Below the pieces are notes generated by a model that saw only the letters and a list, made by a program, of their open reading frames with translations, ran no database searches and was not told the DNA's origin. Below are positions 6,929 through 17,991 of a stretch of 33,792 nt of DNA, one piece after another. This DNA comes from a virus. The translations under genes and the position numbers were made by a program. How positions within the stretch are numbered: position 1 is the first letter of the stretch; each line of letters starts with the position of its first letter. Where the stretch lies: positions 1 through 33,792 of IMG/VR virus record IMGVR_UViG_3300036828_000373, one strand, 5' to 3'.

Positions 6929-6990
6929 CTCTCAAAGGATCACCGCCACGAGGTGAGAGTGGAAACGTCCTTCAGGACGGCCAACGATCC
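6929..6990 (+). promoter_or_regulatory. Structured leader 1, class A (pseudoknot)
   Basis: P1 pairs CTCTCA (6929-6934) with TGAGAG (6954-6959). P2 is CGTCC-ttca-GGACG (6966-6979). The P1 loop strand GGATC (6937-6941) is complementary to GATCC (6986-6990), which abuts the Shine-Dalgarno of the next gene. The conserved loop text is ACCGCCACGAGG and the linker is TGGAAAC. Confidence 0.7.
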
Positions 6991-7007
6991 ATAGAAGGAG
7001 AGAGAAA

Positions 7008-7208
7008 ATGGCGAAAAGCGGATACAAACGGCCGAAACCCGTTTTGATCCCCGTCGATAGCGACGAGTTCAGAGAAGCTCGGCGCAAGTTCTACGCTCGC
7101 GGCGTCTTGGTTGCGGCCATAGAAGGCCGAATACAAGACGCTCACGATCTGGCCAAGGAATGTTCAATCCTTGACCTTGTCGAGGCGAAGAAAGAGTTCA
7201 CGAAATGA
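7008..7208 (+). CDS. Early small protein, 66 aa
   Basis: First gene of the early array. ATG 7008 follows AGAAGGAGAGAGAAA, the shared array Shine-Dalgarno, and the class A leader. The product starts MAKSGYKRPKPVLIPVD, with a basic N-terminus followed by two predicted amphipathic helices and a mixed-charge end (LVEAKKEFTK). No signal peptide, membrane segment or known motif is visible. I do not recognise the family. Small basic proteins first expressed after infection often target host machinery, but nothing here shows that directly. Confidence 0.75.
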   Translation: MAKSGYKRPKPVLIPVDSDEFREARRKFYARGVLVAAIEGRIQDAHDLAKECSILDLVEAKKEFTK

Positions 7209-7228
7209 TTGGGGGCGTAAGCCCCTTG

Positions 7229-7293
7229 CTGACACGATCCACCTCCATGCGGTGTCAGTGGAAACTATGCCGATCGGCGTAGGCCAACGGATC
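7229..7293 (+). promoter_or_regulatory. Structured leader 2, class A (pseudoknot)
   Basis: P1 is CTGACAC (7229-7235) with GTGTCAG (7252-7258). P2 is CTATGCC-gatc-GGCGTAG (7265-7282). The loop strand GATCC (7236-7240) pairs with GGATC (7289-7293). Compared with leader 1 the two pseudoknot strands have swapped sequence. A GC hairpin (GGGGGC-gtaa-GCCCC, 7211-7225) precedes it. Confidence 0.75.
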
Positions 7294-7309
7294 ACAAAGG
7301 AGAGATACC

Positions 7310-7576
7310 ATGAAGAACGGAACCAAGCGCGTTTTGTGCTGGGGCGTGATCGGAGCAGCTTGCTGCGACATAGTCGAAGGCAAAGGCCCGATCGACAGTC
7401 TCGGAGTGGCTACTGGAGACGCAAAAGACTTGGCGGTTTACACCGCCAAAGGCGTCTACAACGGAGCCGCTGCGGCGGGGCGCAAAGTCGCCAACGCCAG
7501 CAACTTCGTCATCGACAAGGTCTTGTCGAGGGAGCCGAAGCGCCACCAGAAGCCACAGCTCAAAAGCGTTTCGTAA
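7310..7576 (+). CDS. Early small protein, 88 aa, with hydrophobic N-terminus
   Basis: ATG 7310 follows AAAGGAGAGATACC. After MKNGTKR comes a hydrophobic, Cys-containing stretch (VLCWGVIGAACCDIVEG) that could insert in or lie against a membrane, then a Gly/Ala-rich middle and a basic Lys/Arg tail. The hydrophobic part is short and contains Gly and Cys, so a membrane location is uncertain. No domain is recognised. It sits between two class A leaders as a single-gene cassette. Confidence 0.72.
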   Translation: MKNGTKRVLCWGVIGAACCDIVEGKGPIDSLGVATGDAKDLAVYTAKGVYNGAAAAGRKVANASNFVIDKVLSREPKRHQKPQLKSVS

Positions 7577-7598
7577 CCAAGGCCCCTGCGGGGGCCAG

Positions 7599-7664
7599 CC
7601 TTCAAAGGATCAACCGCTACGAGGTGAAGGTAGAAACGTCTCATTTCGAGACGGCCAATGATCC
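7599..7664 (+). promoter_or_regulatory. Structured leader 3, class A (pseudoknot)
   Basis: P1 is CCTTCA (7599-7604) with TGAAGG (7625-7630). P2 is CGTCTC-atttc-GAGACG (7637-7653). The loop strand GGATC (7607-7611) pairs with GATCC (7660-7664). The preceding hairpin GGCCCC-tgcg-GGGGCC lies at 7581-7596. Confidence 0.75.
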
Positions 7665-7686
7665 ACAAAGGAGAGAGAGAGAGACA

Positions 7687-8142
7687 ATGATTATCAATGT
7701 GACGCAGCACGACGCCACCCCCGATCAGATCGCGGCAGGCGTCGTTGAACTGCTGCCACAATACAAGGAGGCGGTTCGCGGCGCGCTCACTTTTAGTGAG
7801 CTGCCGAACCACCAGAATAAATTGTTGCACAGCCGAGCCGCGCAGATTGCGCAGCTGGTTCTCAACCAATTCCTCATGCATCACGTGCCTAAAGGGGAAA
7901 GGCTGGCGATGATCGGTGGCGCCCCCTTTTTCATGAGCCACTTGGAAATGGCTCTGTTTGAGGCGAGCATCTGTCCGGTCTACGCTTTCAGCCAGCGCGT
8001 CTCGGAGGAGACGAATCAGGCTGACGGCAGTGTAAAGAAGACGCAAGTCTTCAAACATGAAGGCTTCGTCTTCGGCCGCGACTGGCGATGCAACTTCTTT
8101 TCCGAGGCAAGCGATATCTTATGCAAGGCAAGAGATCGCTAA
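7687..8142 (+). CDS. Conserved mobile-element protein with IGGAP and YAFSxR motifs, 151 aa
   Basis: ATG 7687 follows AAAGGAGAG and a GAGA run. The product opens MIINVTQHDATPDQIAAGVV and contains AMIGGAPFFM (about residues 78-87) and CPVYAFSQRVSEE, then a DGSVKKTQVFKHEGFVFGRD region. I recall proteins of this pattern (NxTQHxATPxQ, IGGAP, YAFSxR, FxHxGFV) as widespread in phages and integrative elements with no established function. The last 15 residues (after GRDW) look appended and may be phage-specific. It is a cytosolic alpha/beta protein by appearance. The longer upstream extension of this frame overlaps the previous gene and leader and is not used. Confidence 0.8.
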   Translation: MIINVTQHDATPDQIAAGVVELLPQYKEAVRGALTFSELPNHQNKLLHSRAAQIAQLVLNQFLMHHVPKGERLAMIGGAPFFMSHLEMALFEASICPVYAFSQRVSEETNQADGSVKKTQVFKHEGFVFGRDWRCNFFSEASDILCKARDR

Positions 8143-8170
8143 ACCTCGGAAGGCCCCCTACAGGGGCTTA

Positions 8171-8234
8171 CTCGCACGATCCACCTCCACGCGGTGCGAG
8201 TGGCTCTCCAGCCAATCGGTTGGACGAACGGATC
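8171..8234 (+). promoter_or_regulatory. Structured leader 4, class A (pseudoknot)
   Basis: P1 is CTCGCAC (8171-8177) with GTGCGAG (8194-8200). P2 is TCCAGCC-aatc-GGTTGGA (8207-8224). The loop strand GATCC (8178-8182) pairs with GGATC (8230-8234), directly before AACAAAGGAGAGA. Confidence 0.75.
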
Positions 8235-8255
8235 AACAAAGGAGAGAGACATGAA

Positions 8256-8426
8256 ATGGTAGATCAAGTAAGACAGAAGATCGCTGACCGCATCAAGCTC
8301 GTCGCAGCACCCCTTATCGAAACGGTGCTGCGACGTTTGCTTGGTGATGCAGGGATCAAGGTGACAGTGACAATCGAGAGGTTACAACCAAAAGCTACCA
8401 ACCTCGAAAAGGCACCAGCACCGTAG
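8256..8426 (+). CDS. Early small protein, 56 aa, amphipathic
   Basis: I chose ATG 8256 because ATG 8251, which sits at the standard array distance from the Shine-Dalgarno, opens only a three-codon ORF (Met-Lys-Trp-stop) whose TAG overlaps this start. The product (MVDQVRQKIADRIKLVAAPL...) is predicted to be a helix pair followed by a short beta segment (IKVTVTIERLQ). It has no membrane segment or motif that I recognise. Translation may depend on re-initiation after the mini-ORF. Confidence 0.65.
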   Translation: MVDQVRQKIADRIKLVAAPLIETVLRRLLGDAGIKVTVTIERLQPKATNLEKAPAP

Positions 8427-8487
8427 ATCGCAAGCTAGGCCAGCTCCCAAAACGCGGGAGCTGGCTTGTGGTTGCGATAATGCAACC
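8427..8487 (+). promoter_or_regulatory. Structured leader 5, class C (P1/P2 with alternative P3)
   Basis: P1 is ATCGCAA (8427-8433) with TTGCGAT (8472-8478). P2 is GCCAGCTCC with GGAGCTGGC (8439-8447 / 8457-8465). Alternative P3 is GGTTGC (8470-8475) with GCAACC (8482-8487). P1 and P3 share TTGC and exclude each other. The sequence starts directly after the upstream stop. Confidence 0.7.
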
Positions 8488-8506
8488 AACACCAGAGAAT
8501 GACGAC

Positions 8507-8546
8507 AACGAGGCGCCGGTCTCCAAAACCGGCGTCTCGTTCGTTT
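8507..8546 (+). terminator. Strong intrinsic terminator inside the leader of the TTG-start gene
   Basis: AACGAGGCGCCGGT (8507-8520) pairs with ACCGGCGTCTCGTT (8528-8541) over 14 positions with one G-U pair, then CGTTTTT. It lies between the structured leader and the next gene, so it should attenuate downstream expression unless it is bypassed. Confidence 0.75.
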
Positions 8547-8577
8547 TTCTGGTTCACTCAGACGAAAGGAGAGAGAC

Positions 8578-8718
8578 TTGATCAAAACGATCAAACGCAC
8601 GCTTGTGGATTTGCAGTCGGAGGGTGTGCTCCAATACCCGGAGCGAGCTGCTCTGATGCTTTTCCTGATCTCGTCAATACTGCTCGTATTGGCGATAACG
8701 TGCGGCTTCAAATTATGA
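8578..8718 (+). CDS. Small membrane protein with TTG start, 46 aa
   Basis: TTG 8578 sits at the standard distance after GAAAGGAGAGAGAC, exactly where other array genes have ATG. The product has a basic N-terminal half (MIKTIKRTLVDLQ, reading TTG as Met) and a single C-terminal transmembrane segment (ALMLFLISSILLVLAITCGF). The stop overlaps the next gene's ATG as ATGA. The rare start and the upstream terminator suggest low or conditional expression, as expected for a potentially toxic membrane peptide. Its role is unknown. Confidence 0.65.
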   Translation: MIKTIKRTLVDLQSEGVLQYPERAALMLFLISSILLVLAITCGFKL

Positions 8719-8897
8719 GTGGCCAAATTCACGCCCGAGCTGTTTTCGGCTGCGATGAAAACTCTTGGGTCCGCCCGTTGTGCGGCACACAAGGCGCAAT
8801 GGGATGCGAAATGGCTCCGCAAGGAGCCTATGAGCAGGTCACTTGCAAAGAGTGCAAGCGAAGGCTTTTCGCTCTCGCTCTTATCGATAAAGAATGA
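8715..8897 (+). CDS. Small Cys-rich, probably zinc-binding protein, 60 aa
   Basis: ATG 8715 overlaps the preceding TGA (ATGA), so translation is coupled. The product contains cysteines at FGCDEN, PLCGTQ, MGCEM and a CKEC pair (VTCKECKRR), a pattern typical of a small treble-clef or zinc ribbon. The stop TGA 8895-8897 lies at the edge of P1 of the next leader, as in several other cassettes. That supports this frame over the competing frame from GTG 8719. Function is unknown. Confidence 0.65.
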   Translation: MSGQIHARAVFGCDENSWVRPLCGTQGAMGCEMAPQGAYEQVTCKECKRRLFALALIDKE

Positions 8898-8944
8898 GCG
8901 CAGCTAGGGTGGCCTACGGGCCACCTCATGGTGCGTTTCGCACC
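8896..8944 (+). promoter_or_regulatory. Structured leader 6, class C
   Basis: P1 is GAGCGCA (8896-8902) with TGCGTTT (8932-8938). P2 is GGTGGCC-tacg-GGCCACC (8908-8925). Alternative P3 is GGTGCG (8930-8935) with CGCACC (8939-8944). The upstream stop codon overlaps P1. Unlike other copies, about 40 bases with a second small hairpin separate it from the Shine-Dalgarno. Confidence 0.75.
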
Positions 8945-8999
8945 CAGACCCCTCCTGAGCATGAGGCAAAAAGGCTCACAACCAAAAGGAGAGATGACA

Positions 9000-9383
9000 A
9001 TGATGAGTCCCTCTACAATCCGTGAAATGTCCCGTGATGCTGCAAAGAGAGCAGCGCGCGCCCGCAAGGAGCCGTGGGAGGCTACTCCCGACGCTCTGGA
9101 ACGCGGACGCAACGGTGACACCAGCGGCGTAGAAATCCCGTTCCTCGGCGATCACGTTCCCAAAGGCTGGGAACGCATCAACCTGATGGAGCCGAAGCGC
9201 GGGTGGCACGAAGACGTTGACGGCTTTGGCGCCTATTTCGTCGATACCTCCGGGTTCGGCGGCTCAGGCGAGCCTGCTCTGACTCAGAAGCAACTCATGG
9301 AAGTTCTGCTTCCAGGATACGGGTATGCTCTGATCGAGTGCGGGCAATTCCAAGGCTACGTCGGCGTGTTCCGCCGCAAATAG
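9000..9383 (+). CDS. Conserved phage hypothetical protein, 127 aa
   Basis: I chose ATG 9000 because the in-frame ATG 8994 is only two bases from the GGAGAG site. A basic Ala/Arg-rich helix (about residues 8-24) is followed by a region with IPFLGDHVPKGWERI, DGFGAYFVDTSGFG and a C-terminal YALIECGQFQGYVGVFRRK. It looks like a compact soluble alpha/beta protein. Similar small proteins are, as I recall, common in phages of alphaproteobacteria without known function. Confidence 0.75.
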   Translation: MMSPSTIREMSRDAAKRAARARKEPWEATPDALERGRNGDTSGVEIPFLGDHVPKGWERINLMEPKRGWHEDVDGFGAYFVDTSGFGGSGEPALTQKQLMEVLLPGYGYALIECGQFQGYVGVFRRK

Positions 9384-9384
9384 G

Positions 9385-9437
9385 ATTGTGAGCCGCTGCT
9401 CGTCCATGTGGGCGAGCAGCTACGCACAATCATGTGC
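9385..9437 (+). promoter_or_regulatory. Structured leader 7, class B
   Basis: P1 is ATTGTG (9385-9390) with CACAAT (9425-9430). P2 is GCTGCTCG with CGAGCAGC (9395-9402 / 9413-9420). The internal loop is AGCC opposite TACG. Alternative P3 is GCAC (9424-9427) with GTGC (9433-9436), abutting AAAAAGGAGAG. Confidence 0.7.
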
Positions 9438-9452
9438 AAAAAGGAGAGAGAC

Positions 9453-9890
9453 ATGCCTGAGTTCATTCTCAACATGGGCACTCCCGAAGCCGCGAGCAAG
9501 TTCAAAGAACTCAGCGAGTTTAATCGCGGCTACATTGAAGCAGCATTCTGGACTTCAAGCGGAGATGCCGAAGACGGCGATCTGCACGAAGCCAGCTTTG
9601 CTGAATTAGAACCGAAAGCTCTAGCCGAGATGCTCGAAGCCTGTCTGGATTTTGAAAGGCTGGCTGGTCCATTATTGGATCACGTCTACATCCTGGAGAA
9701 AAAGGACGGCAATTTAGCTTATAGTCCCCACCAAGCCGGTGTTGATTTCTGGTTGACCAGAAACGGTCACGGTGCGGGGTTCTGGGATCGTGGTCTCGGC
9801 GAAGTCGGCAACCAGCTGACTCGTGACGCGAAAAGCTTCGGCTCCTGCGATCTCTATCGTGGAGACGATAATCTGATCTACGTCACGTAG
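9453..9890 (+). CDS. Conserved phage hypothetical protein with GHGAGFWDRGLG motif, 145 aa
   Basis: ATG 9453 follows AAAAAGGAGAGAGAC. The product has a GYIEAAFWTSSGD segment near residue 27, an acidic middle, and a strongly conserved-looking C-terminal part: HQAGVDFWLTRNGHGAGFWD, then CDLYRGDDNLIYV. I recognise the FWLTRNGHGAGFWDRG pattern from many phage genomes, always as a protein of unknown function. It is soluble, with no signal peptide. Confidence 0.85.
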   Translation: MPEFILNMGTPEAASKFKELSEFNRGYIEAAFWTSSGDAEDGDLHEASFAELEPKALAEMLEACLDFERLAGPLLDHVYILEKKDGNLAYSPHQAGVDFWLTRNGHGAGFWDRGLGEVGNQLTRDAKSFGSCDLYRGDDNLIYVT

Positions 9891-9943
9891 CGTGACGCGA
9901 CCCGATGGGCGGCGCAACCCGCCCATCCAGCCGCAGCACGCGG
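9891..9943 (+). promoter_or_regulatory. Structured leader 8, class C (divergent)
   Basis: P1 is CGTG-ac-GCG (9891-9899) with CGC-ag-CACG (9932-9940). P2 is GATGGGCGG with CCGCCCATC (9904-9912 / 9919-9927). Alternative P3 is CCGC (9931-9934) with GCGG (9940-9943). It begins at the base after the upstream TAG. Confidence 0.55.
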
Positions 9944-9959
9944 AAAAAGGAGAGAAAGC

Positions 9960-10409
9960 ATGAGCAGACAGATGCGTCTGATCGAGCACCTTGCCAACAG
10001 CATTGTCGCCATGAGGAATTGCGAGAAGAATGGCAATACCGAGTGGCACGACAAGCACTACGAGAGGATTCTGTGGCTGGTAAAGAATGCCCTGCCTTCG
10101 GGCTCGGGCATCGACAGCGGCACCAAGATCGACTTCGACGCGAGCAACGGAGACGCTCCGGAGAAGATCGTTCTGCAATGCAGCTTCCACCACATGGATG
10201 AACACGGCGGCTACGACGGATGGACAGACCACACCGTCGTAGCCCGGCCGTCATTCGTCCTCGGGATCGACCTCACGATCACCGGCAAGGATCGCAACGA
10301 CATCAAGGACTACTTGAGTGAGGTCTACTACGACGCATTGATGCAGCAATGGACAGAAACTGAAAGCGGCTTCAGCAGAACGCCGCCAGCGAAGTCCGAC
10401 GCTGCCTAA
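9960..10409 (+). CDS. Conserved phage hypothetical protein, 149 aa
   Basis: ATG 9960 follows AAAAAGGAGAGAAAGC. The N-terminal third is helical with a WHDKHYERILWLVKNALPSG segment. The middle has KIDFDASNGDAPEKIVLQCSF. The C-terminal part reads as a beta-rich domain (FVLGIDLTITGKDRNDIKDY) with a final helix. It resembles early phage proteins of unknown function. No catalytic motif is visible. Confidence 0.8.
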   Translation: MSRQMRLIEHLANSIVAMRNCEKNGNTEWHDKHYERILWLVKNALPSGSGIDSGTKIDFDASNGDAPEKIVLQCSFHHMDEHGGYDGWTDHTVVARPSFVLGIDLTITGKDRNDIKDYLSEVYYDALMQQWTETESGFSRTPPAKSDAA

Positions 10410-10434
10410 GCTAAGGGGCGCTCCTGCGCCCTAA

Positions 10435-10489
10435 ACCCGCACGACCAAAGCCGCCACGAGGCGCGGGTGGATAACCAACCAATTTGGTC
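10435..10489 (+). promoter_or_regulatory. Structured leader 9, class A (pseudoknot, divergent)
   Basis: P1 is ACCCGC (10435-10440) with GCGGGT (10463-10468). The loop strand GACCAAA (10443-10449) pairs perfectly with TTTGGTC (10483-10489), although the sequence is wholly different from GGATC/GATCC. The conserved loop GCCGCCACGAGG is kept. P2 is not obvious. A hairpin GGGCGC-tcct-GCGCCC precedes it at 10416-10431. Confidence 0.7.
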
Positions 10490-10520
10490 ACGCTCAATCT
10501 TAAAAGGAGAGAGAAATACC

Positions 10521-10712
10521 ATGATGCACGTCATCGTGCTCGTGAACAGCTTTTTGCTGACCCTGTTCATCATCGCCAACCATAGCTCGGTTCATGCCAC
10601 TGCCACTCGGCAGTGGATTGAATATGAGTGGGTCATGGCGGATCGCTGGGACGCCTGGGAAGGCCGCATGGCCGAACTCCCGGCATCCCTCAACATCGAA
10701 GACAGGAGGTAA
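10521..10712 (+). CDS. Small protein with N-terminal signal or anchor, 63 aa
   Basis: ATG 10521 follows AAAAGGAGAGAGAAATACC. The first 20 residues (MMHVIVLVNSFLLTLFIIAN) form a transmembrane segment or uncleaved signal. The remaining 40 residues are acidic and Trp-rich (IEYEWVMADRWDAWEGRM) and would be periplasmic or cytoplasmic depending on topology. The next gene follows by one base, and the AGGAGGT for it lies in the last codons here. Function is unknown. Confidence 0.7.
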   Translation: MMHVIVLVNSFLLTLFIIANHSSVHATATRQWIEYEWVMADRWDAWEGRMAELPASLNIEDRR

Positions 10713-10713
10713 C

Positions 10714-11034
10714 ATGACAGAAAAATCACGTTACGAAGTGGCGGTCGAGAATATGACCGACAAGCAGAAAGAAGCTTGTCGGCTTCTGGGGATCACCACA
10801 GACGAGTGGTGGTTCTGCATCGGCCGCTACCTCCACGTCACCAAAGAGCTATCGACGCTGCGAGTCGGCGTCGCCCGCATTGCCCAATACTTGGACGTTG
10901 ATGGGGTTCATGGCAGCCGGGACACCGGCTACCAGGAGCTTCACAAGCGTTCAGTCGAGATCGACCGGGGCTGGAACGCGCTTTGCGCGGCCATCCTCAA
11001 TAAGCTCGACGCGTGGGCTCTGGACAGACACTGA
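10714..11034 (+). CDS. Early hypothetical protein, 106 aa
   Basis: ATG 10714 has the strong Shine-Dalgarno AGGAGGT inside the end of the previous gene, so the two are coupled and this gene needs no leader of its own. The product is mostly helical, with MTDKQKEACRLLGITTDEWW near residue 13 and a C-terminal GWNALCAAILNKLDAWALD helix. No known motif is seen. Confidence 0.72.
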   Translation: MTEKSRYEVAVENMTDKQKEACRLLGITTDEWWFCIGRYLHVTKELSTLRVGVARIAQYLDVDGVHGSRDTGYQELHKRSVEIDRGWNALCAAILNKLDAWALDRH

Positions 11035-11043
11035 TATAGACTG

Positions 11044-11104
11044 ATCCAGCTCGATGCAGCGGCCGTAGCCGCTGCATCAGGGTGGATGGTCAAACAACTC
11101 CACC
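11044..11104 (+). promoter_or_regulatory. Structured leader 10, class C
   Basis: P1 is ATCCA (11044-11048) with TGGAT (11083-11087). P2 is GATGCAGCGGC-cgta-GCCGCTGCATC (11053-11078). Alternative P3 is GGTGGA (11081-11086) with TCCACC (11099-11104), abutting the Shine-Dalgarno. Confidence 0.7.
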
Positions 11105-11118
11105 AGAAGGAGAGAAAC

Positions 11119-11328
11119 ATGACAAGAAAACAGGTCATGCAGGCACTCACCAAGCTTGAGCAGCCGCATGAAGCAGATTCGAAGGAGCTGGAGGTCCGCG
11201 TCACCACCATGCACGGCGTGCTGTTCGAAGGGGAGGTTCACGATCCCGAAGACGGCCTGCTCCGCATCGATGGTGCACTCAAAGTGGCCTTCATCAAGCT
11301 CGAATCGATCATCGCGATCGAAGGGTGA
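11119..11328 (+). CDS. Early small protein, 69 aa
   Basis: ATG 11119 follows AGAAGGAGAGAAAC. The N-terminal helix (MTRKQVMQALTKLEQ) leads into a predicted small beta-barrel (LEVRVTTMHGVLFEGEVHD, LRIDGALKVAFIKLESIIAI). That strand pattern is reminiscent of SH3- or Sm-like folds, but I cannot assign a family. It is followed three bases later by a coupled gene. Confidence 0.7.
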   Translation: MTRKQVMQALTKLEQPHEADSKELEVRVTTMHGVLFEGEVHDPEDGLLRIDGALKVAFIKLESIIAIEG

Positions 11329-11331
11329 GCT

Positions 11332-11547
11332 ATGCATCACCTGCTCACCGTCAACATCACGTGGCCGGACGGCGAATTGCTCGAACAGGTGAAAATCATC
11401 GAGCTGGAGCCAGGCCGCGACCCGATCGCGGTAGCAAAGAACATCGTCGAGCACATCGAACGGAACTACGAAACCGTGCCCGTGTCGTTCGGCGAAGCCG
11501 TTGCGACTGTCCTGCGGGAGTGGGCAAAGCTTCCGAAAGAGGACTGA
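11332..11547 (+). CDS. Early small protein, 71 aa
   Basis: ATG 11332 lies three bases after the previous stop, with GAAGGG as a modest ribosome site, so coupling is likely. The product opens with two beta strands (HHLLTVNITWPDGELLEQVK) followed by helices. No motif is recognised. Its TGA 11545-11547 overlaps P1 of the next leader, so termination here could influence that RNA's folding. Confidence 0.7.
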   Translation: MHHLLTVNITWPDGELLEQVKIIELEPGRDPIAVAKNIVEHIERNYETVPVSFGEAVATVLREWAKLPKED

Positions 11548-11598
11548 GCGCAGCACCGGGTTGTGGCTTCGGCCACAACCCCATGGTGCGCTTGCACC
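11546..11598 (+). promoter_or_regulatory. Structured leader 11, class C
   Basis: P1 is GAGCGCA (11546-11552) with TGCGCTT (11587-11593). P2 is GGTTGTGGC-ttcg-GCCACAACC (11559-11580). Alternative P3 is GGTGC (11585-11589) with GCACC (11594-11598), one base before the AAAAAGGAGAG stretch. Confidence 0.75.
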
Positions 11599-11615
11599 GA
11601 AAAAGGAGAGAAGAG

Positions 11616-12086
11616 ATGAAACTAATCCATTACTCGGACACACCGCTTACAACGGTGCGTTCGATGGGTCAGGAAAACGAGGGCAAGCCATGTGGCTTAT
11701 GGTTGTCAGTCAATGACGACTGGTTAACATGGTGCCGCTCGGAGCAGTTCCAACTGCATAGTCTGGCCCACGCTACCGAGGTGATCCTTGCCGCAGGAGC
11801 GAATATCCTGCGGCTTCACTCACCCGACGAGCTTGATGAGTTCTCAAAACGGTTCGCTCATGGTGGACTTGATTATGAGATCAATCACTGTGTTCGTTGG
11901 AGCGAAGTCGCCAATCTTTGGCAAGGCATCATCATCGAACCCTATCAATGGTCCCGCCGATTAACGCCACACACATCGTGGTATTACGGCTGGGACATTG
12001 CATCAGGGTGCATCTGGGATGCCGAAACGGTCGCTGAGCTGCGACCAATAAACATCCCAGCAGAGTGCAGCACCGAGGGGGTTTAA
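11616..12086 (+). CDS. Conserved phage hypothetical protein (LIHYS ... WYYGWDIASGCIWD), 156 aa
   Basis: ATG 11616 follows AAAAAGGAGAGAAGAG. The product opens MKLIHYSDTPL and contains KPCGLWLSVNDDWLTWC (about 24-40), GIIIEPYQWSRR (about 104-115) and WYYGWDIASGCIWDAE (about 121-136). I recognise this set of motifs from many phages as an uncharacterised family. The conserved His, Tyr, Ser, Trp and Cys residues look like an active site, perhaps a transferase, but I cannot name a reaction. The gene's last codons include the 5' half of the next leader. Confidence 0.82.
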   Translation: MKLIHYSDTPLTTVRSMGQENEGKPCGLWLSVNDDWLTWCRSEQFQLHSLAHATEVILAAGANILRLHSPDELDEFSKRFAHGGLDYEINHCVRWSEVANLWQGIIIEPYQWSRRLTPHTSWYYGWDIASGCIWDAETVAELRPINIPAECSTEGV

Positions 12087-12115
12087 CATCCCCTCCATGG
12101 TGCGCTTTTTGCACC
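12062..12115 (+). promoter_or_regulatory. Structured leader 12, class C, overlapping the upstream stop codon
   Basis: P1 is AGAGTGCA (12062-12069, inside the upstream gene) with TGCGCTTT (12101-12108). P2 is GAGGGG with CCCCTC (12075-12080 / 12090-12095), and the upstream TAA sits in its loop. Alternative P3 is GGTGC (12099-12103) with GCACC (12111-12115). Confidence 0.7.
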
Positions 12116-12128
12116 AAAGGAGAGAAGA

Positions 12129-12431
12129 ATGGAAACCAACCAAACACTAGAGGACCAACTGATCGCCGAATTTGCGGCGTTCATCGAACGCACCGGATTC
12201 CCCAAAATGTCCGCTGACGAGCTTTGGTGCGAGCTTCTCGCTCACGAATGCAACGACAGCGAACTTTTGCGCGGACAACGGCAAGCCACCGAAGCAGAAC
12301 TGGAATGGCTTGAAACGTTCAGCAAACGCTGGGAAGCTATGGAGAACGCTTGCCGCGAAGCTCATCGCCGGGCGGAGCAGCGCATCGCCGACCACATCGA
12401 CGATGATCTCGGCGAATCTCCAGACTTCTAG
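12129..12431 (+). CDS. Early helical protein, 100 aa
   Basis: ATG 12129 follows AAAGGAGAGAAGA. The whole product is predicted helical and acidic (METNQTLEDQLIAEFAAFIE; later ELEWLETFSKRWEAMENACR), with a coiled-coil-like central helix and an Asp/Glu-rich end. There is no membrane segment and no recognised motif. It may be a small binding or inhibitor protein, but that is speculation. Confidence 0.75.
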   Translation: METNQTLEDQLIAEFAAFIERTGFPKMSADELWCELLAHECNDSELLRGQRQATEAELEWLETFSKRWEAMENACREAHRRAEQRIADHIDDDLGESPDF

Positions 12432-12435
12432 CTAG

Positions 12436-12491
12436 ATTGTGAGCCGATGCCCGCCCAGTGGGTTGGGCATCTACGCACAATCAAACGTGCG
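12436..12491 (+). promoter_or_regulatory. Structured leader 13, class B
   Basis: P1 is ATTGTG (12436-12441) with CACAAT (12476-12481). P2 is GATGCCC with GGGCATC (12446-12452 / 12465-12471). The internal loop is again AGCC opposite TACG. Alternative P3 is CGCAC (12474-12478) with GTGCG (12487-12491). Confidence 0.72.
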
Positions 12492-12504
12492 AGAAGGAGA
12501 GACA

Positions 12505-12720: not shown

Positions 12721-12917
12721 AACAAAACAAAGCTGAGAAAGCGATCGACCGCAGGGTCGAGAAAGCTTACTACGCCAGTTGCTCCGGTGTCCAGATCAAC
12801 ATCATGGACATCGGCAAAATCTTCGCCTTCGGGCGAATGAAAGTCGCGGCCGGTGAAGATGACGAGGCGCTGAAATCAAGTATCCGCGCCTACGTCGAAA
12901 CCATTCGCACGAACTAG
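12711..12917 (+). CDS. Early small protein, 68 aa
   Basis: ATG 12711 overlaps the previous gene by ten bases, with GGAGGAACGGG just upstream as ribosome site. The product (MAVKQNKAEKAIDRRVEKAY...) is basic at the N-terminus. Its centre (GVQINIMDIGKIFAFGRMKV) and a C-terminal helix are seen in other phage small proteins, as I recall, with unknown role. No leader of its own; expression is coupled. Confidence 0.72.
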   Translation: MAVKQNKAEKAIDRRVEKAYYASCSGVQINIMDIGKIFAFGRMKVAAGEDDEALKSSIRAYVETIRTN

Positions 12918-12969
12918 TTGCCAACGCAGAGGCCGTCCGCTGTGGCGGCCTCGATGGTGGCAACCCCAC
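12917..12969 (+). promoter_or_regulatory. Structured leader 14, class C, before the DUF932 gene
   Basis: P1 is GTTGCCA (12917-12923) with TGGCAAC (12958-12964). P2 is GAGGCC with GGCCTC (12929-12934 / 12947-12952). Alternative P3 is the short GTGG (12957-12960) with CCAC (12966-12969). A terminator follows at once. Confidence 0.62.
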
Positions 12970-12970
12970 T

Positions 12971-12998
12971 CAACCAGTCACTCGGCTGGTTGTTTTTT
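12971..12998 (+). terminator. Intrinsic terminator inside the DUF932 leader
   Basis: CAACCAG (12971-12977) pairs with CTGGTTG (12986-12992) and is followed by TTTTTT. It sits between the leader and the Shine-Dalgarno of the DUF932 gene, only about 16 bases from the ATG, which looks like an attenuator. Confidence 0.7.
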
Positions 12999-13013
12999 GA
13001 AGGAGAGAGACAA

Positions 13014-14066
13014 ATGATGAAAGGCATCAGCTTGGTGGAATTGGCTCAGAAGATCGAAGCCAATCGCTCCGCCAAGAAGGACTTCATCAGCGACACCAGA
13101 GACCTAACGCTGTTGACGAAGCCAGGTTTGGAAAAGCCCACCGTGGTTCTCGAAGTCAGGAACCAGGGCCAATTCCCGATCCAGCCGCTGGCACACGATC
13201 AGATCGGCACCCATCTCGGTATCCCGTCGAAATATTACGATCGGATGCTGAAGGAAGCTCCCGACCTGCTCGCGACCAACGTCAACGCTTGGTTCCGCAA
13301 GGAGCCCAAGAGTCGGATGATCCGCACGTTGCGCGGCAACGACAGAGCTTTCCTCTCGAACTCGTTCAATCGGATCGAGAACGAGGAAATCTCGGAAGTC
13401 GCGCTGCCGGTTCTGGCCGACATCCCCGACGTGACTTTCGTCTCGACCGAGGTGACCGACAAGCGCCTGTATATCCAGGCCGTCGCACCGCGGATTCAGG
13501 GCGAGATCAGGAAGGGCGATATCGTCCAGGCAGGCGTGCTGATCAAGAACAGCGAAGTCGGCCTCGGTGCCGTCTCAGTCGCCTCAGTTCTGTGGCGGCT
13601 GCTCTGCCTCAACGGCATGGTTGGCTCGGACGTGTTCAGTGCCCGCCACGTTGGGCGGCGTATCGAAGATAACGCCGCACTCTGGGCCGAAGACACAGTC
13701 AAAGCCGATGACCGCGCGGTCTTGCTCAAAGTCCGCGATATGGTCAGGGCCGCGGTGGATGAAACCAATTTCCAGAAGCAGATCACCCAAGCACGTGATC
13801 TGGTGGAAGGCAGAATCACCGGCGACCCGCAGAAGGTGGTCGAAGTCCTGGCCGAGAAAGTCGGAGCCAATGAAACCGAGAAGGGCGGCATCTTGCGCGC
13901 CCTGATCGAAGGCGGCGACCTCTCAGCTTGGGGATTGCTCAATGCCGTGACCGCTCAGAGCCACACCGCGCGGGATTTCGACCGCGCCGTGGAGTTCGAG
14001 AGGGCCGGTGGGCAGTTACTCGACCTGCCGAGAACCGAATGGAAGGAGCTGCTTCAGGCAGCTTGA
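13014..14066 (+). CDS. DUF932 family protein, 350 aa
   Basis: This is the largest gene of the early array. ATG 13014 (an ATG also follows at 13017) comes after GAAGGAGAGAGACAA. It matches the DUF932 family of phage and plasmid proteins: an N-terminal domain with GQFPIQPLAHDQIGTHLGIP and YYDRML, a middle with RTLRGNDRAFLSNSFNRIEN and DKRLYIQAV, then GIVIxNSEVGxG-like text here as VLIKNSEVGLGAVSVASVLW with RLLCLNGM. The C-terminal part is helical, with a LLNAVTAQSHTARDFDRAVE segment. Function is unknown for the family. Expression appears to be controlled by both a structured leader and an intrinsic terminator. Confidence 0.88.
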   Translation: MMKGISLVELAQKIEANRSAKKDFISDTRDLTLLTKPGLEKPTVVLEVRNQGQFPIQPLAHDQIGTHLGIPSKYYDRMLKEAPDLLATNVNAWFRKEPKSRMIRTLRGNDRAFLSNSFNRIENEEISEVALPVLADIPDVTFVSTEVTDKRLYIQAVAPRIQGEIRKGDIVQAGVLIKNSEVGLGAVSVASVLWRLLCLNGMVGSDVFSARHVGRRIEDNAALWAEDTVKADDRAVLLKVRDMVRAAVDETNFQKQITQARDLVEGRITGDPQKVVEVLAEKVGANETEKGGILRALIEGGDLSAWGLLNAVTAQSHTARDFDRAVEFERAGGQLLDLPRTEWKELLQAA

Positions 14067-14069
14067 TTC

Positions 14070-14131
14070 GGTTGTAAGCCTAGGGTGGTTCCCTCACAGG
14101 GGAGCCACCATGGGGTTGCAATCATGCAGCC
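14070..14131 (+). promoter_or_regulatory. Structured leader 15, class B/C
   Basis: P1 is GGTTGTAA (14070-14077) with TTGCAATC (14116-14123). P2 is a long hairpin from GGTGG (14084) to CCACC (14109). Alternative P3 is GGTTGCA (14114-14120) with TGCAGCC (14125-14131), sharing bases with P1. Confidence 0.68.
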
Positions 14132-14150
14132 ATCCAAGAAGGAGAGAGAA

Positions 14151-14522
14151 ATGTCTTGGAAACCCGAAGTCATCGCTGACAATTCTGGCAAGTGGTGCGG
14201 CAACGCACTGCGCTTCGCCACCAAAGAGGAAGCGGAAGCTCAAGTCTTCGACTTGTCCTGCCGCTGGACGGAGGTGCGCGAAACCCGAGCGATCGAATGC
14301 GATGATCCAGTGAACAGCCAGTGGGTTGACGGCAGAACGGTTCCTGCTGGCCCGCAGCCTCCGATAGACGAAGAGAAGCTAGTTACAGCCCATAAATTAG
14401 GGCGCAAGGACTGGAGCGAAGGTGGCTCAATGTCACCTCCATTCGTCAATGAGGAGGAAAAGGACGCCTACAAGGCGGGGTGGCTGGGAGAAAAGCGCCG
14501 CGCCGAGCAAGGCGGCCTCTGA
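14151..14522 (+). CDS. Conserved phage hypothetical protein, 123 aa
   Basis: ATG 14151 follows AAGAAGGAGAGAGAA. The N-terminal 55 residues (MSWKPEVIADNSGKWCGNAL, RFATKEEAEAQV, RWTEVRETRAIECDDPVN) match a small phage and plasmid family I recall as conserved but uncharacterised. The C-terminal half (about 75-123) looks like a second short helical module, with KLGRKDWSEGG and AYKAGWLGEKRR. The two parts may be a fusion of two early peptides. Confidence 0.78.
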   Translation: MSWKPEVIADNSGKWCGNALRFATKEEAEAQVFDLSCRWTEVRETRAIECDDPVNSQWVDGRTVPAGPQPPIDEEKLVTAHKLGRKDWSEGGSMSPPFVNEEEKDAYKAGWLGEKRRAEQGGL

Positions 14523-14571
14523 ATGCAGCTAGTCTGGCCCTTCGGGGCCAGATCAGGGTGCATTCCGCACC
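14521..14571 (+). promoter_or_regulatory. Structured leader 16, class C
   Basis: P1 is GAATGCA (14521-14527) with TGCATTC (14559-14565), a compensated change from GAGCGCA/TGCGCTT elsewhere. P2 is TCTGGCCC-ttcg-GGGCCAGA (14533-14552). Alternative P3 is GGTGC (14557-14561) with GCACC (14567-14571). Confidence 0.75.
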
Positions 14572-14587
14572 ATAGAAGGAGAGAGAA

Positions 14588-14773
14588 ATGCAGAAGTTCT
14601 ACGAAAGTCTCATTGAGCGTATGGCTCGGCGTTTCATGTTGGCTGGCCTGTATAGGGCCGTCGAGAACACCGACAAGTTCACGAAGGATTATCTCGGCGA
14701 CCACCATGACTTCGACGAGCTGAAGCTCAAGGCACCGAAGGTGCCCGAGATCGAGTATTCTGCACAGCTCTGA
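14588..14773 (+). CDS. Early small protein, 61 aa
   Basis: ATG 14588 follows AGAAGGAGAGAGAA. The N-terminal 25 residues (MQKFYESLIERMARRFMLAG) form a basic amphipathic helix that could lie on a membrane or on nucleic acid. The rest is charged and ends KVPEIEYSAQL. No domain is recognised. It is a single-gene cassette between two leaders. Confidence 0.72.
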   Translation: MQKFYESLIERMARRFMLAGLYRAVENTDKFTKDYLGDHHDFDELKLKAPKVPEIEYSAQL

Positions 14774-14781
14774 CAAGACAT

Positions 14782-14836
14782 CATCGACTGAGCGGCGGCG
14801 AAATCCGCCGCTCCCCGATGCTGTTTGATAAGCATC
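14782..14836 (+). promoter_or_regulatory. Structured leader 17, class C
   Basis: P1 is CATCG (14782-14786) with CGATG (14816-14820). P2 is GAGCGGCGG-cgaaat-CCGCCGCTC (14790-14813). Alternative P3 is GATGCT (14817-14822) with AGCATC (14831-14836), abutting AAAAGGAGAG. Confidence 0.68.
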
Positions 14837-14851
14837 AAAAGGAGAGACACC

Positions 14852-15442
14852 ATGAAAATGGAACCAATCAAGACGATTGATCTGGACTGTGTCCAGGTCA
14901 AAATCTACCCAGACGATTTTGGGGACCAGGAATGTCCGTTGGATTGCCTCGAAGGCGCCGACGATATCAAAGTCCTCGTCTGGGATCGCCGTTCTACGTT
15001 GTCAGATCGCAACGAGTTCAAGAACGACGATCCAAATGACATTCCAGGCTGGGCATTCTTTCACGGCTACTACAGCTTCCCCCTGTTCAAATACGAGCAC
15101 GGAGCAGTAGTGTATGCCGTGACTGAGGGCGGCAATCCGTTCCACTGCCCCTGGGACAGCGGACAAACGGGGTGGGTGCTGGTCAAGATAATTGACTGGA
15201 AAGACAGCACTCCATTAACGGTTGCCGAAAGCTGGGCGAAAGCCATAACGACATGGTGCAATGGCTGGTACTATGGTTTCGTCATTGAAGACCAGCGCGG
15301 CGAACATCTCGATTCGTGCTGGGGCTTTGACGACGATGACTACTGCGAGAGCGAAGCTCTCGAAATCGCCAAACATCATGTTGAAGAGCTTCAAACCAAA
15401 AAGGCGCGGAAGCTCGAAGCTAACCGCCCTGATATGTACTAA
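14852..15442 (+). CDS. Conserved phage hypothetical protein, 196 aa
   Basis: ATG 14852 follows AAAAGGAGAGACACC. The product contains WAFFHGYYSFPLFKYEHGAV (about 67-86), NPFHCPWDSGQTGWVLVKI (about 95-113), TTWCNGWYYGFVIEDQ (about 134-149) and a CWGFDDDDY acidic patch. This combination (HGYYSFPLF, CPWDSGQTG, WNGxYYGF) is familiar to me from many phage genomes as an uncharacterised protein. The Cys, His, Trp and Asp clusters suggest a folded enzyme or binding domain. No function can be stated. Confidence 0.82.
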   Translation: MKMEPIKTIDLDCVQVKIYPDDFGDQECPLDCLEGADDIKVLVWDRRSTLSDRNEFKNDDPNDIPGWAFFHGYYSFPLFKYEHGAVVYAVTEGGNPFHCPWDSGQTGWVLVKIIDWKDSTPLTVAESWAKAITTWCNGWYYGFVIEDQRGEHLDSCWGFDDDDYCESEALEIAKHHVEELQTKKARKLEANRPDMY

Positions 15443-15489
15443 GCGCAGCTTGGGCGGCCTACGGGCCGCCTTCTGGTGCGCTTCGCACC
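15441..15489 (+). promoter_or_regulatory. Structured leader 18, class C
   Basis: P1 is AAGCGCA (15441-15447) with TGCGCTT (15477-15483), perfect over 7 bp. P2 is GGCGGCC-tacg-GGCCGCC (15453-15470). Alternative P3 is GGTGCG (15475-15480) with CGCACC (15484-15489). The TAA of the upstream gene overlaps P1. Confidence 0.78.
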
Positions 15490-15503
15490 AAGAGGAGAGA
15501 GAA

Positions 15504-15770
15504 ATGAACGTACTGACACGAAAGCAGCGCGAGGCATTGTTCCGCGTCTTTCAACGCGACTTCCCAGGATGGGAGTCGCCGTTCAAGAGACGCGAGAGCA
15601 AACCATGTCCTCGTTGCGGTTATGCGGGAGAAGCCGTCCGCGTTCCATCCCAGCAATGGCGAAACTTCCGGAAAAAAGTCGTGGGTTATTCAGACGGTTC
15701 CGGATGCGTCATGATCCCCTGGCGCGGAATGTGGCTCGGAGTAGAAAAAGATGGCTACACGCATTCGTGA
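15504..15770 (+). CDS. Small protein with CPRCG motif, 88 aa
   Basis: ATG 15504 follows AGAGGAGAGAGAA. The product is basic. It has a helical N-terminus (MNVLTRKQREALFRVFQRDF), a CPRCG zinc-type pair at about residues 35-39 and a C-terminal region ending VEKDGYTHS. The C-terminus is echoed at the end of the following HNH protein (RDGYTHS), which starts inside this gene's last codons in another frame. This suggests the endonuclease gene was inserted at this 3' end. Confidence 0.75.
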   Translation: MNVLTRKQREALFRVFQRDFPGWESPFKRRESKPCPRCGYAGEAVRVPSQQWRNFRKKVVGYSDGSGCVMIPWRGMWLGVEKDGYTHS

Positions 15771-16266
15771 AATTTGGAAGCCAATCCCAGGATATGAGGG
15801 GAAGTACAGCGCTTCCAATATGGGGTGTGTTAGATCGCACACCCATAAAGCGCGAATACTAAAGCCATTTCCAAATGGCAAAACGCACCATTTGGCTGTG
15901 GCCTTGATGCACAATGGTAAGAAACAGACACGATTTGTTCATTGCCTTGTGCTATTGGTCTTCCGAGGTCCATGCCCGCCTGGGCTAGAATGTCGTCACC
16001 TAGACGGCACTCACAACAATTCCCTCTGCAATTTGCAGTATGGAACGAAGCAAGAGAACTACAAAGATCGCATCAAACATGGAACTGGCAATGAAGGCGA
16101 AAAAAGCCCGAATGCAAAGTTGACATGGCAATTGGTGCGACTGATCAGATCGTCACGAAAATCACGGAGGGGTCTCGCCAAACAATTCGGCGTTAGCCAT
16201 ACGGTGATTAACGATATCCTAAGCAACAAAGCTTGGATCGAACGTGACGGCTACACACACTCGTAA
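15751..16266 (+). CDS. HNH homing endonuclease with NUMOD4-type N-terminus, 171 aa
   Basis: The N-terminus (IWKPIPGYEGKYSASNMGCV) is a NUMOD4-type DNA-binding motif. It is followed by an HNH_3-type nuclease: RFVHCLVLLVF, CRHLDGTHNNSLCNLQYGT (about 104-122) and KQEN. The C-terminal 60 residues hold a resolvase-like helix-turn-helix (RGLAKQFGVSHTVINDIL). It starts within the previous gene without an array leader, and its base composition is more AT-rich than its neighbours. Free-standing endonucleases of this kind are selfish elements that move into intergenic sites. The final residues duplicate the end of the upstream gene's protein. Confidence 0.88.
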   Translation: MATRIREIWKPIPGYEGKYSASNMGCVRSHTHKARILKPFPNGKTHHLAVALMHNGKKQTRFVHCLVLLVFRGPCPPGLECRHLDGTHNNSLCNLQYGTKQENYKDRIKHGTGNEGEKSPNAKLTWQLVRLIRSSRKSRRGLAKQFGVSHTVINDILSNKAWIERDGYTHS

Positions 16267-16403
16267 AGGAGATTCAGATAGCTCAAGCCTGATGGGCTAG
16301 TGGCGGGGAAAGGTTAATGCGTCCCCTGCCACATCTCTCCTTGGGTCCTTGACAAGGGTGACCCTTCAGGCGACCCTTGTCACTAGTGTAGTGGAGCGCG
16401 ATC
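16267..16403 (+). other. Hairpin-bearing spacer upstream of the second HNH gene
   Basis: Two hairpins lie here. One pairs GTGGC-GGGG (16300-16308) with CCCC-T-GCCAC (16323-16332). The other pairs TGACAAGGGT (16350-16359) with ACCCTTGTCA (16373-16382), perfect over 10 bp. No array Shine-Dalgarno AAGGAGAGA precedes the HNH gene, although AAAGGAGA follows the first HNH stop at 16266-16272. Confidence 0.55.
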
Positions 16404-16901
16404 ATGAAAACTCAAATCGCTGCTGGCCAACGATTTGACCGTTTGGTCGCGCTTCGCGACACTAGAAAGAGAGCCAAAAGTGGCCAAGCTTTTTGGGAAT
16501 TTCTTTGTGACTGTGGGCAAACTAAGTCTATCAGAGCTTATAAAGTCACGTCAGGCAACACTCGATCTTGTGGATGCCTACGCAAAGAACTGCTTTTGCA
16601 GCTTAATTCTCACAAGAAAGGAGCAAAGCTGCATAGAATGTCAAAACTTCCAGGATACCTCGTTTGGCGAAGAATGATTTCGCGATGCGAGAATCCAAAC
16701 GATAATGACTACCGCCGCTACGGTGGTAGAGGAATCAGAGTTTGTAAACGCTGGTTTCTATTTGAGAATTTCTTAGCTGATATGGGACCGCCTCCTTCAG
16801 GCAGGTCTATTGACCGCATCAACAATGATCGCGGGTATTCGCCAAGAAATTGCCGATGGGCAACTACGAGCGAACAAGCAAACAACAAAAGCCGTAGTTA
16901 A
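16404..16901 (+). CDS. HNH-type homing endonuclease, 165 aa
   Basis: The N-terminal part has a Cys cluster (FLCDCGQ ... SCGCLRKE) that probably binds zinc. The second half carries the typical phage endonuclease text YLVWRRMISRCENPNDNDYR, RYGGRGIRVCKRW, SIDRINNDRGYSPRNCRWAT and EQANNKSRS. This matches the family often annotated as HNH or AP2-associated endonuclease. It has only a weak upstream ribosome site (GTGGAGCG). It is probably another invasive gene next to the first HNH gene, splitting the early array. Confidence 0.85.
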   Translation: MKTQIAAGQRFDRLVALRDTRKRAKSGQAFWEFLCDCGQTKSIRAYKVTSGNTRSCGCLRKELLLQLNSHKKGAKLHRMSKLPGYLVWRRMISRCENPNDNDYRRYGGRGIRVCKRWFLFENFLADMGPPPSGRSIDRINNDRGYSPRNCRWATTSEQANNKSRS

Positions 16902-16922
16902 CCCCAACAATCCCGTTCAGGC

Positions 16923-16978
16923 AATCGTGGCCTTCTGCACCGTCGCAAGGCGGTGCAGGGGGACGCGATTCTTGCGTC
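16923..16978 (+). promoter_or_regulatory. Structured leader 19, class C
   Basis: P1 is AATCGTG (16923-16929) with CGCGATT (16964-16970). P2 is CTGCACCG with CGGTGCAG (16935-16942 / 16951-16958). Alternative P3 is GACGC (16962-16966) with GCGTC (16974-16978), two bases before AAAAGGAGAGAGAC. Confidence 0.7.
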
Positions 16979-16993
16979 AAAAAGGAGAGAGAC

Positions 16994-17914
16994 ATGGCTA
17001 CACATAATCAGGTGGCCCACGCTTGGGCCAACCAGACAGGGAAGCATCAGAAAGGACACAACATGTCCTATTCTGGGCTGCTTCTCTTCAGCTACTCCAC
17101 GCCTATCGCTCGCATTGTCGAAAGACCAACTTTCGGCAGAGGTGATCGGTGCATTCTGGTGACAGATCACCACTATTCGACCACCACCAGCAAGCACATC
17201 ACTTACGCCCGCCGAGCGGTCAGCCACAACAAGATTTTCTTCGTACCCAACGTGGGATGGTCTTCGGTTTCGGAGCCAGACCACCAGCGAAATTTCGACA
17301 GCATGGTGGCGGAAGCGCGCAATCTGTTGGCGAAAGCCAAACGCGCGCTTCGCTATGGGCCGCTCAATCTAGACGGGGCAACCGAAAAGCTGAACGATGC
17401 TCGCGAATATCGAGCGTGGTTCAATTTGGAGGTTCCAGAGGAACCTCTGGCAGCCCTGCAATCGGAGATTGACGCGGCCTATCCGGCAGCGAACACCCGC
17501 GCCAAGGTCTACGAAGACCGCGAGGCCGAACGCATCCAGCTCGAAACCGAGCGTATGCGGATAAGGCAACGCGAGGCTGACAAAGCCAATCGTGAGAGAC
17601 TGCTGAAATGGTTGAACGGAGAAAGCGTCCAGCCGCCACACACGGCTCGACCCTACATCCGTATCAAAGACGACCAAGTCGAAACGACGTGGGGCGCGTC
17701 AGCTCCATTAGCAGACGCGATCAACATCTATCGGCTGGCGACAACGTGCCGGAAAAACCACAACGAATGGGGTGGGTGGCAAAGACCAATCATGGTCGGC
17801 GACTTCCCGCTCCAGCACATCGACGAGGTGGGAACGGTGCGCGTCGGTTGCCATGTGCTCGGCTACCGCCTGATGCGCATGGTTGCCGAGAAGGCGGGTA
17901 TTCCCGCCGAATAG
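16994..17914 (+). CDS. Conserved phage hypothetical protein (MATHNQVAHAWA), 306 aa
   Basis: ATG 16994 follows AAAAAGGAGAGAGAC. The product starts MATHNQVAHAWANQTGKHQK, then has FSYSTPIARIV and a HHYSTTTSKHITYARRAV segment (about 59-76). I recognise this start from many phages and mobile elements. A charged coiled-coil region follows at about 160-205 (AERIQLETERMRIRQREADK). The C-terminal domain ends LPLxHIDEVGxVRVGCH-like text, here FPLQHIDEVGTVRVGCHVLG. Function is unknown. It is the last large gene of the array. Confidence 0.85.
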   Translation: MATHNQVAHAWANQTGKHQKGHNMSYSGLLLFSYSTPIARIVERPTFGRGDRCILVTDHHYSTTTSKHITYARRAVSHNKIFFVPNVGWSSVSEPDHQRNFDSMVAEARNLLAKAKRALRYGPLNLDGATEKLNDAREYRAWFNLEVPEEPLAALQSEIDAAYPAANTRAKVYEDREAERIQLETERMRIRQREADKANRERLLKWLNGESVQPPHTARPYIRIKDDQVETTWGASAPLADAINIYRLATTCRKNHNEWGGWQRPIMVGDFPLQHIDEVGTVRVGCHVLGYRLMRMVAEKAGIPAE

Positions 17915-17925
17915 TCATTATGGCC

Positions 17926-17971
17926 TAATTATGAGCCGATGCTGCCTACGGGCAGCATCTACGCATAATTA
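17926..17971 (+). promoter_or_regulatory. Structured leader 20, class B
   Basis: P1 is TAATTATG (17926-17933) with CATAATTA (17964-17971). P2 is GATGCTGCC-tacg-GGCAGCATC (17938-17959). The AGCC/TACG internal loop matches leaders 7 and 13, while the P1 bases changed in a compensated way. P3 is weak here. Confidence 0.72.
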
Positions 17972-17991
17972 CAAAGCAAAAGGAGAGAAGA

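Follow-up and report, generated by a model that had tools for sequence, protein, structure and literature searches.

The sequence analysed here, a 33,792-base virus record from IMG/VR (IMGVR_UViG_3300036828_000373, hereafter the window), carries on its plus strand an array of early genes, most of which are preceded by a structured RNA leader. These leaders are the subject of this analysis. The sequence (A)AGGAGAGA is found upstream of plus-strand open reading frames (ORFs) at 20 sites from position 6996 to position 17981, with the exact form AAGGAGAGA at 19 of them and AGGAGAGA at the remaining one (15493). A first-pass annotation had described 20 cassettes with a common layout. The 20 sites are indeed present and a structured leader precedes 19 of them (5 of class A and 14 of class B/C); the cassette at 8567 has instead a terminator-like element of neither class, a 14-bp hairpin with a T run after it (8507-8550). 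There is one leader per cassette, as had been proposed, and the element has no counterpart at the secondary genes or at the two HNH ORFs.

The array has a single good sigma-70-like site upstream, a predicted early promoter (TTGACT-17-TACATT, 6428-6456), and a strong intrinsic terminator closes the early unit (18103-18140). Given these two signals, the array is most simply read as one transcription unit, from about 6430 to about 18140. Three TATAGCTACA repeats lie near the promoter (6361, 6411, and 6435) and are possibly operators for a phage regulator. Two terminator-like hairpins are found within the unit, the one at 8507-8550, after the first four class A cassettes, and another at 12971-12998, directly before the Shine-Dalgarno (SD) sequence of the DUF932 gene. 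Both are possible attenuation points.

The five class A leaders (6928-6990, 7228-7293, 7598-7664, 8170-8234, and 10435-10489) had been described as simple P1 hairpins. They are in fact nested double pseudoknots (P1a-P2a-P3-P1b-P4-P2b in 5/5 copies), whose elements follow exactly the order of the hepatitis delta virus (HDV) ribozyme: P1, the P2 pseudoknot, P3 (ACC/GGT), a 7-nt L3 (e.g., TCCACGC), P1, GG, P4, C-N-A-A, and P2. P1 opens with a G.U pair in three of the copies and with A-U in the other two. P1.1, which joins L3 to J1/4, is CC/GG in four copies and CT/AG, a compensatory change, in the third leader. J4/2 has the catalytic-type C followed by N-A-A (CCAA in four copies, CGAA in one). 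Leader 1 pairs GCTCTC/GAGAGT in P1 and GGATC/GATCC in P2, leader 2 has GATCC/GGATC in P2, and leader 5, in which P4 is reduced, has GACCAAA/TTTGGTC in P2. We first took class A for a simple H-type pseudoknot operator, with compensatory pairing between the loop and the SD sequence; the HDV fold replaced this reading.

We described this fold by a strict descriptor requiring P1, P2, P3, the 7-nt L3, P1.1, and a C-N-A-A J4/2. It matches exactly the five class A leaders, including the fourth, and has zero matches in the other sequence (4.2 Mb, counting both strands) and zero in 2.1 Mb of reversed control. The hepatitis-delta-like fold of class A is well supported because a descriptor combining all these rules matches these leaders only, and nothing in the other loci or in the reversed control. 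Two points count against this assignment: the descriptor was tuned after the fold had been recognised, and the full-length HDV-like matches that a permissive Rfam scan gave at three of the five leaders (RF02682 at leaders 1 and 3, with 26.8 and 24.5 bits; drz-agam-1 at leader 2, with 20.8 bits; the other two copies unmatched) score below the gathering cut-offs of 44 and 37, which are curation thresholds for named subfamilies and not a property of the fold. Self-cleavage is predicted directly before the first base of P1, i.e., at 6927^6928, 7227^7228, 7597^7598, 8169^8170, and 10434^10435. A GC-rich hairpin lies upstream of each predicted cut, ending 1-3 bases before it in four of the five leaders and about 15 bases before it at site 6996. 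The class A sequence pattern had 0 matches in viral contigs and 16 scattered matches in bacterial genomes, none of which (0/16) satisfies the HDV descriptor.

The other 14 leaders had been split into classes B and C. These are a single design, made of a lower stem P1 of 5-8 bp, a small internal loop flanked by purines, a hairpin P2, and a third helix, P3, which had been overlooked and which overlaps P1 and adjoins the ribosome site. The 5' strand of P3 consists of the final 1-2 bases of the 3' loop and the first bases of the P1 3' strand; its partner is the segment directly before the SD sequence. The class C leaders are located at 8896-8944 (loop GCTA/CATGG, P3 GGTGCG/CGCACC, predicted cut 8929^8930), 11044-11104 (GCTC/AGGG, P3 GGTGGA/TCCACC, 11080^11081), 11546-11598 (GCACC/CATGG, P3 GGTGC/GCACC, 11584^11585), 12063-12115 (GCACC/CATGG, upstream stop codon inside the leader, 12098^12099), 12917-12970 (ACGCA/GATGG, before the DUF932 gene and followed by the hairpin at 12971-12998; 12955^12956), 14070-14131 (GCCTAG/ATGGGG, P3 GGTTGCA/TGCAGCC, 14113^14114), 14521-14571 (GCTA/CAGGG, 14556^14557), 15441-15489 (GCTT/TCTGG, 15474^15475), and 16923-16978 (GCCTT/GGGGA, P3 GACGC/GCGTC, 16961^16962), with a class C-like leader at 14776-14836 (P3 GATGCT/AGCATC, 14816^14817). 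The class B leaders are at 9384-9437 (AGCC/TACG, P3 GCACA/TGTGC, 9423^9424), 12435-12491 (AGCC/TACG, P3 CGCAC/GTGCG, 12474^12475), and 17926-17971 (P3 absent, ahead of a tRNA-like sequence; 17962^17963), with a class B-like leader at 9892-9943 (ACCC/CAGC, P3 CCGC/GCGG, 9930^9931). The internal loops of 25 B/C leaders are of size 4/5 in 10, 4/4 in 7, 5/5 in 4, and other sizes in 4. The leaders had been thought to belong to no described RNA family. This does not hold for class A, given its fold, and it stands for B/C, an RNA element that is absent from Rfam (no match even at E 5 to 10).

The stems of the leaders had been noted to vary widely yet stay complementary, as expected for a selected RNA structure, and the B/C copies bear this out. 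MAFFT alone misaligned the mixed copies, so we delimited the blocks by hand; this was done with complementarity in view, which favours the pairing counts and biases the pairing percentages upward. The permutation test and a change in P3 between orthologous leaders (see below) are safer evidence of covariation. In P1, P2, and P3 of the 14 leaders, strands pair better with their own partner than with the strands of other copies (0/20,000 permutations per helix), whereas p was between 0.13 and 0.86 for three control pairings of strands. The top 13 of 561 column pairs by mutual information across the 14 copies are all predicted pairs of P1, P2, or P3. P1 includes nine G.U pairs against one A.C, hence selection acts on the plus-strand RNA and not on DNA dyads. 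This bears on the view that the leaders are DNA-level sites, either operators or attC-type recombination sites that move cassettes. Such sites would account for the presence of one element per cassette in paralogous copies and for the recurrence of cassettes before unrelated genes. They would leave the G.U bias unexplained and give no meaning to the HDV topology or to the register of P3, and the elements lack a conserved flanking core sequence; this view is disfavoured and we give it hardly any weight. As general explanations, DNA operators, attC-like sites, riboswitches, and terminators were rejected because of the G.U bias, the open SD sequences, and the lack of T runs.

A search of further viral sequences had been suggested, and pattern scans showed that the B/C design precedes genes in unrelated viruses. 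With changed stems, it is found in at least seven other uncultivated virus contigs (at least eight with the window). A scan for the ribosome site plus P3 gave 46 matches, among which the contig L054 is a real case: it has no protein similarity to the window, yet one gene after another in it is preceded by a leader of this geometry. Its relatives L086/L107, L087/L105, and L088 also have the design. In one leader that is orthologous between two near-identical viruses of this group, P3 is GGGAC/GTCCC in one virus and GAGGC/GCCTC in the other, a difference of two compensatory changes, and P1 is kept through a G.U pair. A scan with the class C core found L114/L221, L118, L120/L220, L146/L218, and L184/L219, which have other SD sequences; the likeness of their P1 and P3 sequences is partly ascertained because the scan fixed part of these helices, while P2 and many further copies were left free. 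Window leader 14140 and L220 have common loops (GCCTAG / A(T or C)GGGG) and differ in all three stems. The loops GCACC/CATGG and ACACC/CATGG occur in several viruses. A strict B/C descriptor has 11 copies in the early region of the window, one elsewhere, and none on the minus strand, with one match in control sequence (317 kb, reversed and complemented). The class C pattern is absent from the 385 bacterial genomes searched (0/385), of the class of Brucella tritici (G010), i.e., Alphaproteobacteria; a consensus class C query gave only chance matches in named phages, and the 20 matches of the class B pattern were all due to chance. Megablast of the window against named phages gave no match, the UvsX and phrog_7247 proteins of the window have no relative in the viral contigs, and three distant DUF932 relatives are without such leaders.

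Some of these sequences showed further features. At 15912-15975 of L218, a class C leader has its SD sequence, AAGGAG, in the loop of P3 (GGTGC GTTTAAGGAG GCACC), and in this variant P3 could affect initiation directly. The reverse strand of L054 has a second type of leader before positions 440, about 790, 1125, and 3461, in which a 20-bp hairpin (AACCTTAACAAA../..TTTGTTAAGGTT) is followed by a P3-like hairpin (TTAGCAATTCGGCTAA or GTAGCATTTCGGCTAC) and then AAGGAG. In Mesorhizobium phage Cp1R7A-A1 (L081), Erythrobacter phage vB_EliS-L02 (L083), and Roseobacter phage DSS3P8 (L082), a repeated promoter-like block precedes each of the early genes, which also have a conserved start-associated sequence (GTCAACGCAAACGGAGTTT; CGAATCATCGCAAC..AAGGAGACA; CGAAACGCA..AAGGA). 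TTAACC-rich, CtrA-box-like repeats are present in L081 and L083.

The position of the B/C leaders is tied to the gene upstream. The 5' strand of P1 begins at most 6 nt from the upstream stop codon in 10 of the 14 leaders, and similarly in the other viruses, so that the element defines a junction of two genes. This placement would suit a switch coupling translation without cleavage, in which a ribosome ending at the stop codon of P1 melts this stem, its alternative P3 forms, and downstream initiation changes. The SD sequence is nevertheless accessible when P3 is formed and lies outside P1, and leader 16983 is 22 nt past its stop codon; we regard such coupling as improbable.

The leader at 17981, the sole B/C leader without P3, may precede an RNA gene, since a tRNA-like minihelix lies inside the last "early ORF" (18026-18070; GGGCCGG..GCGGGTTCGACTCCCGT..CCGGTCC-ACCA). 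It has an acceptor and a T arm and lacks the anticodon arm. Its match to the tmRNA family of Rfam (27.1 bits, E 7.6e-8) falls short of the gathering score of 47, and it carries a G3.U70 pair and A73, which are alanine identity elements. There is no tRNA gene in the window.

The register of P3 relates the B/C leaders to the RNase III sites of phage T7. Scored at successive positions, P3 peaks 1 to 2 nt ahead of the P1 3' strand. T7 sites are cut after ..TTTAT and before GA, two bases ahead of the 3' strand of the lower stem, which is consistent with the T7 sequence. The peak of P3 thus coincides with the T7 cut register, and after a cut of the T7 type the mRNA would begin with the first base of P3. 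Like the B/C leaders, the T7 early sites (R0.3, R0.5, R1, R1.1, and R1.3) consist of a stem, a 4/5-nt loop, and a stem, an arrangement that the same scanner recovers at R0.3 and R0.5. They lie between early genes, directly before the next ribosome site, and the B/C leaders are likewise placed between genes of the early polycistronic transcript. R0.3, R0.5, and R1.1 all carry the loops ACTC/TATGA, which resemble the GCTA/CATGG of the window, where class C has GCTA or GCTC with CATGG or AGGG. This is a likeness of design, and sequence homology is not claimed. T7 sites differ in having no refolding P3 and no tie to a stop codon, and in being far fewer per genome. R1.1, located between T7 early genes, is a known substrate of RNase III, 60 nt long and with a 4/5 internal loop, and the Sinorhizobium meliloti enzyme also cuts it (PMC6121014).

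Folding predictions fit a change of structure upon cleavage. In the uncut RNA, P1 has a mean pair probability of at least 0.64 in 12 of the 14 B/C leaders and P3 is formed in only one, while in the predicted 3' product P3 has a probability of at least 0.94 in 12 of 13. The SD sequence is mostly unpaired in the predicted processed product, which makes simple translation control, one of the roles proposed at first pass, less likely; mRNA processing, another of them, is supported, and protein binding is possible for B/C. A more elaborate form of control would make the B/C leaders translational operators, in which a phage or host RNA-binding protein reads the internal loop and sets the balance between P1 and P3, class A still being ribozymes. 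The mutual exclusion of P1 and P3 speaks for it, as do loop sequences that persist although the three stems all differ, also from one virus to another (window 14140 and L220). However, neither fold hides the SD sequence in most leaders, one genome holds several types of loop sequence, and we found no candidate binding protein. We consider such operators unlikely, if the most credible of the alternatives weighed here.

The B/C leaders could also be RNAs that act unaided. There is a small chance that they are a new class of catalytic or ligand-controlled RNA, which would cut or switch at the junctions beside the HDV-like ribozymes; were this true, the phage message would be dissected almost entirely by RNA. 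In the narrower version, an undescribed self-cleaving ribozyme, the chance is slightly smaller still. Their positions are interchangeable with those of five HDV-like ribozymes in the same operon, unpaired bases are conserved within a compact stem-loop core, and no Rfam family matches them. Against a new ribozyme, P1 and P3 use a common strand, so that no pseudoknotted active site could hold both, and the likeness to T7 RNase III sites requires no new catalyst.

We propose instead that the leaders probably serve to process a single early transcript at its gene junctions. The sequences show the structures, their covariation and placement, the register of P3, and the recurrence in unrelated viruses; self-cleavage of class A, cutting of B/C, and the part of RNase III in it are inferred. 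Class A leaders would cut themselves directly before their own P1, leaving a GC-rich 3' hairpin on the upstream mRNA and a downstream mRNA that begins with a 5'-OH and a compact double pseudoknot. At B/C leaders, RNase III of the host would cut the 3' side of the internal loop, in the manner of the T7 early region. P2 would stay as the 3' hairpin of the upstream mRNA, and the freed 3' strand of P1 would refold with the segment before the SD sequence into P3, a hairpin with whose first base the downstream mRNA would begin. Either device would yield a short mRNA per gene with both ends protected and AAGGAGAGA open. Two structurally unrelated elements fill the same slot before the same ribosome site, and it is mainly because of this, and of the same products expected from one cut, that we prefer processing over protein-mediated translation control for B/C.

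Several observations sit less easily with processing by RNase III. Leader 15493 is mostly in the P3 form even uncut, P1 of leader 12118 has a probability of only 0.29, and leader 17981 has no P3. The T7 early sites have no comparable P3 (scores 7 to 9.5). The internal loops of B/C show more sequence conservation than cleavage by RNase III should call for, and this could reflect a specific binding protein or a catalytic RNA. Finally, S. meliloti RNase III makes further, atypical cuts in R1.1 and prefers longer duplexes (PMC6121014). The predictions are exact to the base and cheaply testable. If they are correct, B/C would be a new RNA element that encodes a cleavage register and a refolding 5' hairpin together.

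Among known RNAs, class A is closest to HDV-F-prausnitzii (RF02682) and drz-agam-1 (RF01787), with which it has in common the full P1-P2-P3-P1.1-P4 nested pseudoknot, an L3 core of the CC[A or T]CG type, and the C-N-A-A of J4/2. Tailed phages encode HDV-like theta ribozymes that adjoin tRNA genes, with a proposed role in processing tRNA 3' trailers in gut phages, and these are defined by a tRNA at most 5 nt from the cleavage site (PMC10879173). Class A, in a window that has no such gene, falls outside this definition, and its copies differ in forming a series of 5' leaders for protein genes within a single early operon. Our literature search found no HDV-like ribozymes used serially as mRNA leaders, and this would be a new role for those of phages. 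HDV-like ribozymes also occur at the mRNA 5' ends of non-LTR (long terminal repeat) retrotransposons (R2, L1Tc), where they define the 5' end and remain as the 5' untranslated region. Class A would do the same in both respects, whereas the retrotransposon ribozymes are eukaryotic, present in one copy per element, and not intercistronic.

The nearest precedents for repeated leaders are the start-associated repeats SAS and ESAS of Cluster K mycobacteriophages, found before many small nonstructural genes, about half of them with an upstream inverted repeat (PMC3203893). Both sequence and logic set them apart: SAS has a fixed sequence of 13 bp (GGGATAGGAGCCC) and ESAS is a 17-bp sequence-conserved repeat, without replacement of stems or exclusion between P1 and P3, whereas the window leaders have other sequences and freely varying stems. 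A parallel in overall arrangement is man-made. Synthetic insulated cassettes combine the RiboJ ribozyme with a T7 RNase III site (PMC6993053) and, like the phage array, place a ribozyme at the 5' end and an RNase III site between genes, so as to isolate the expression of each gene. If our interpretation holds, the phage would show this engineering in nature, with ribozymes and nuclease sites insulating each gene of a polycistronic message, as synthetic biologists have built it.

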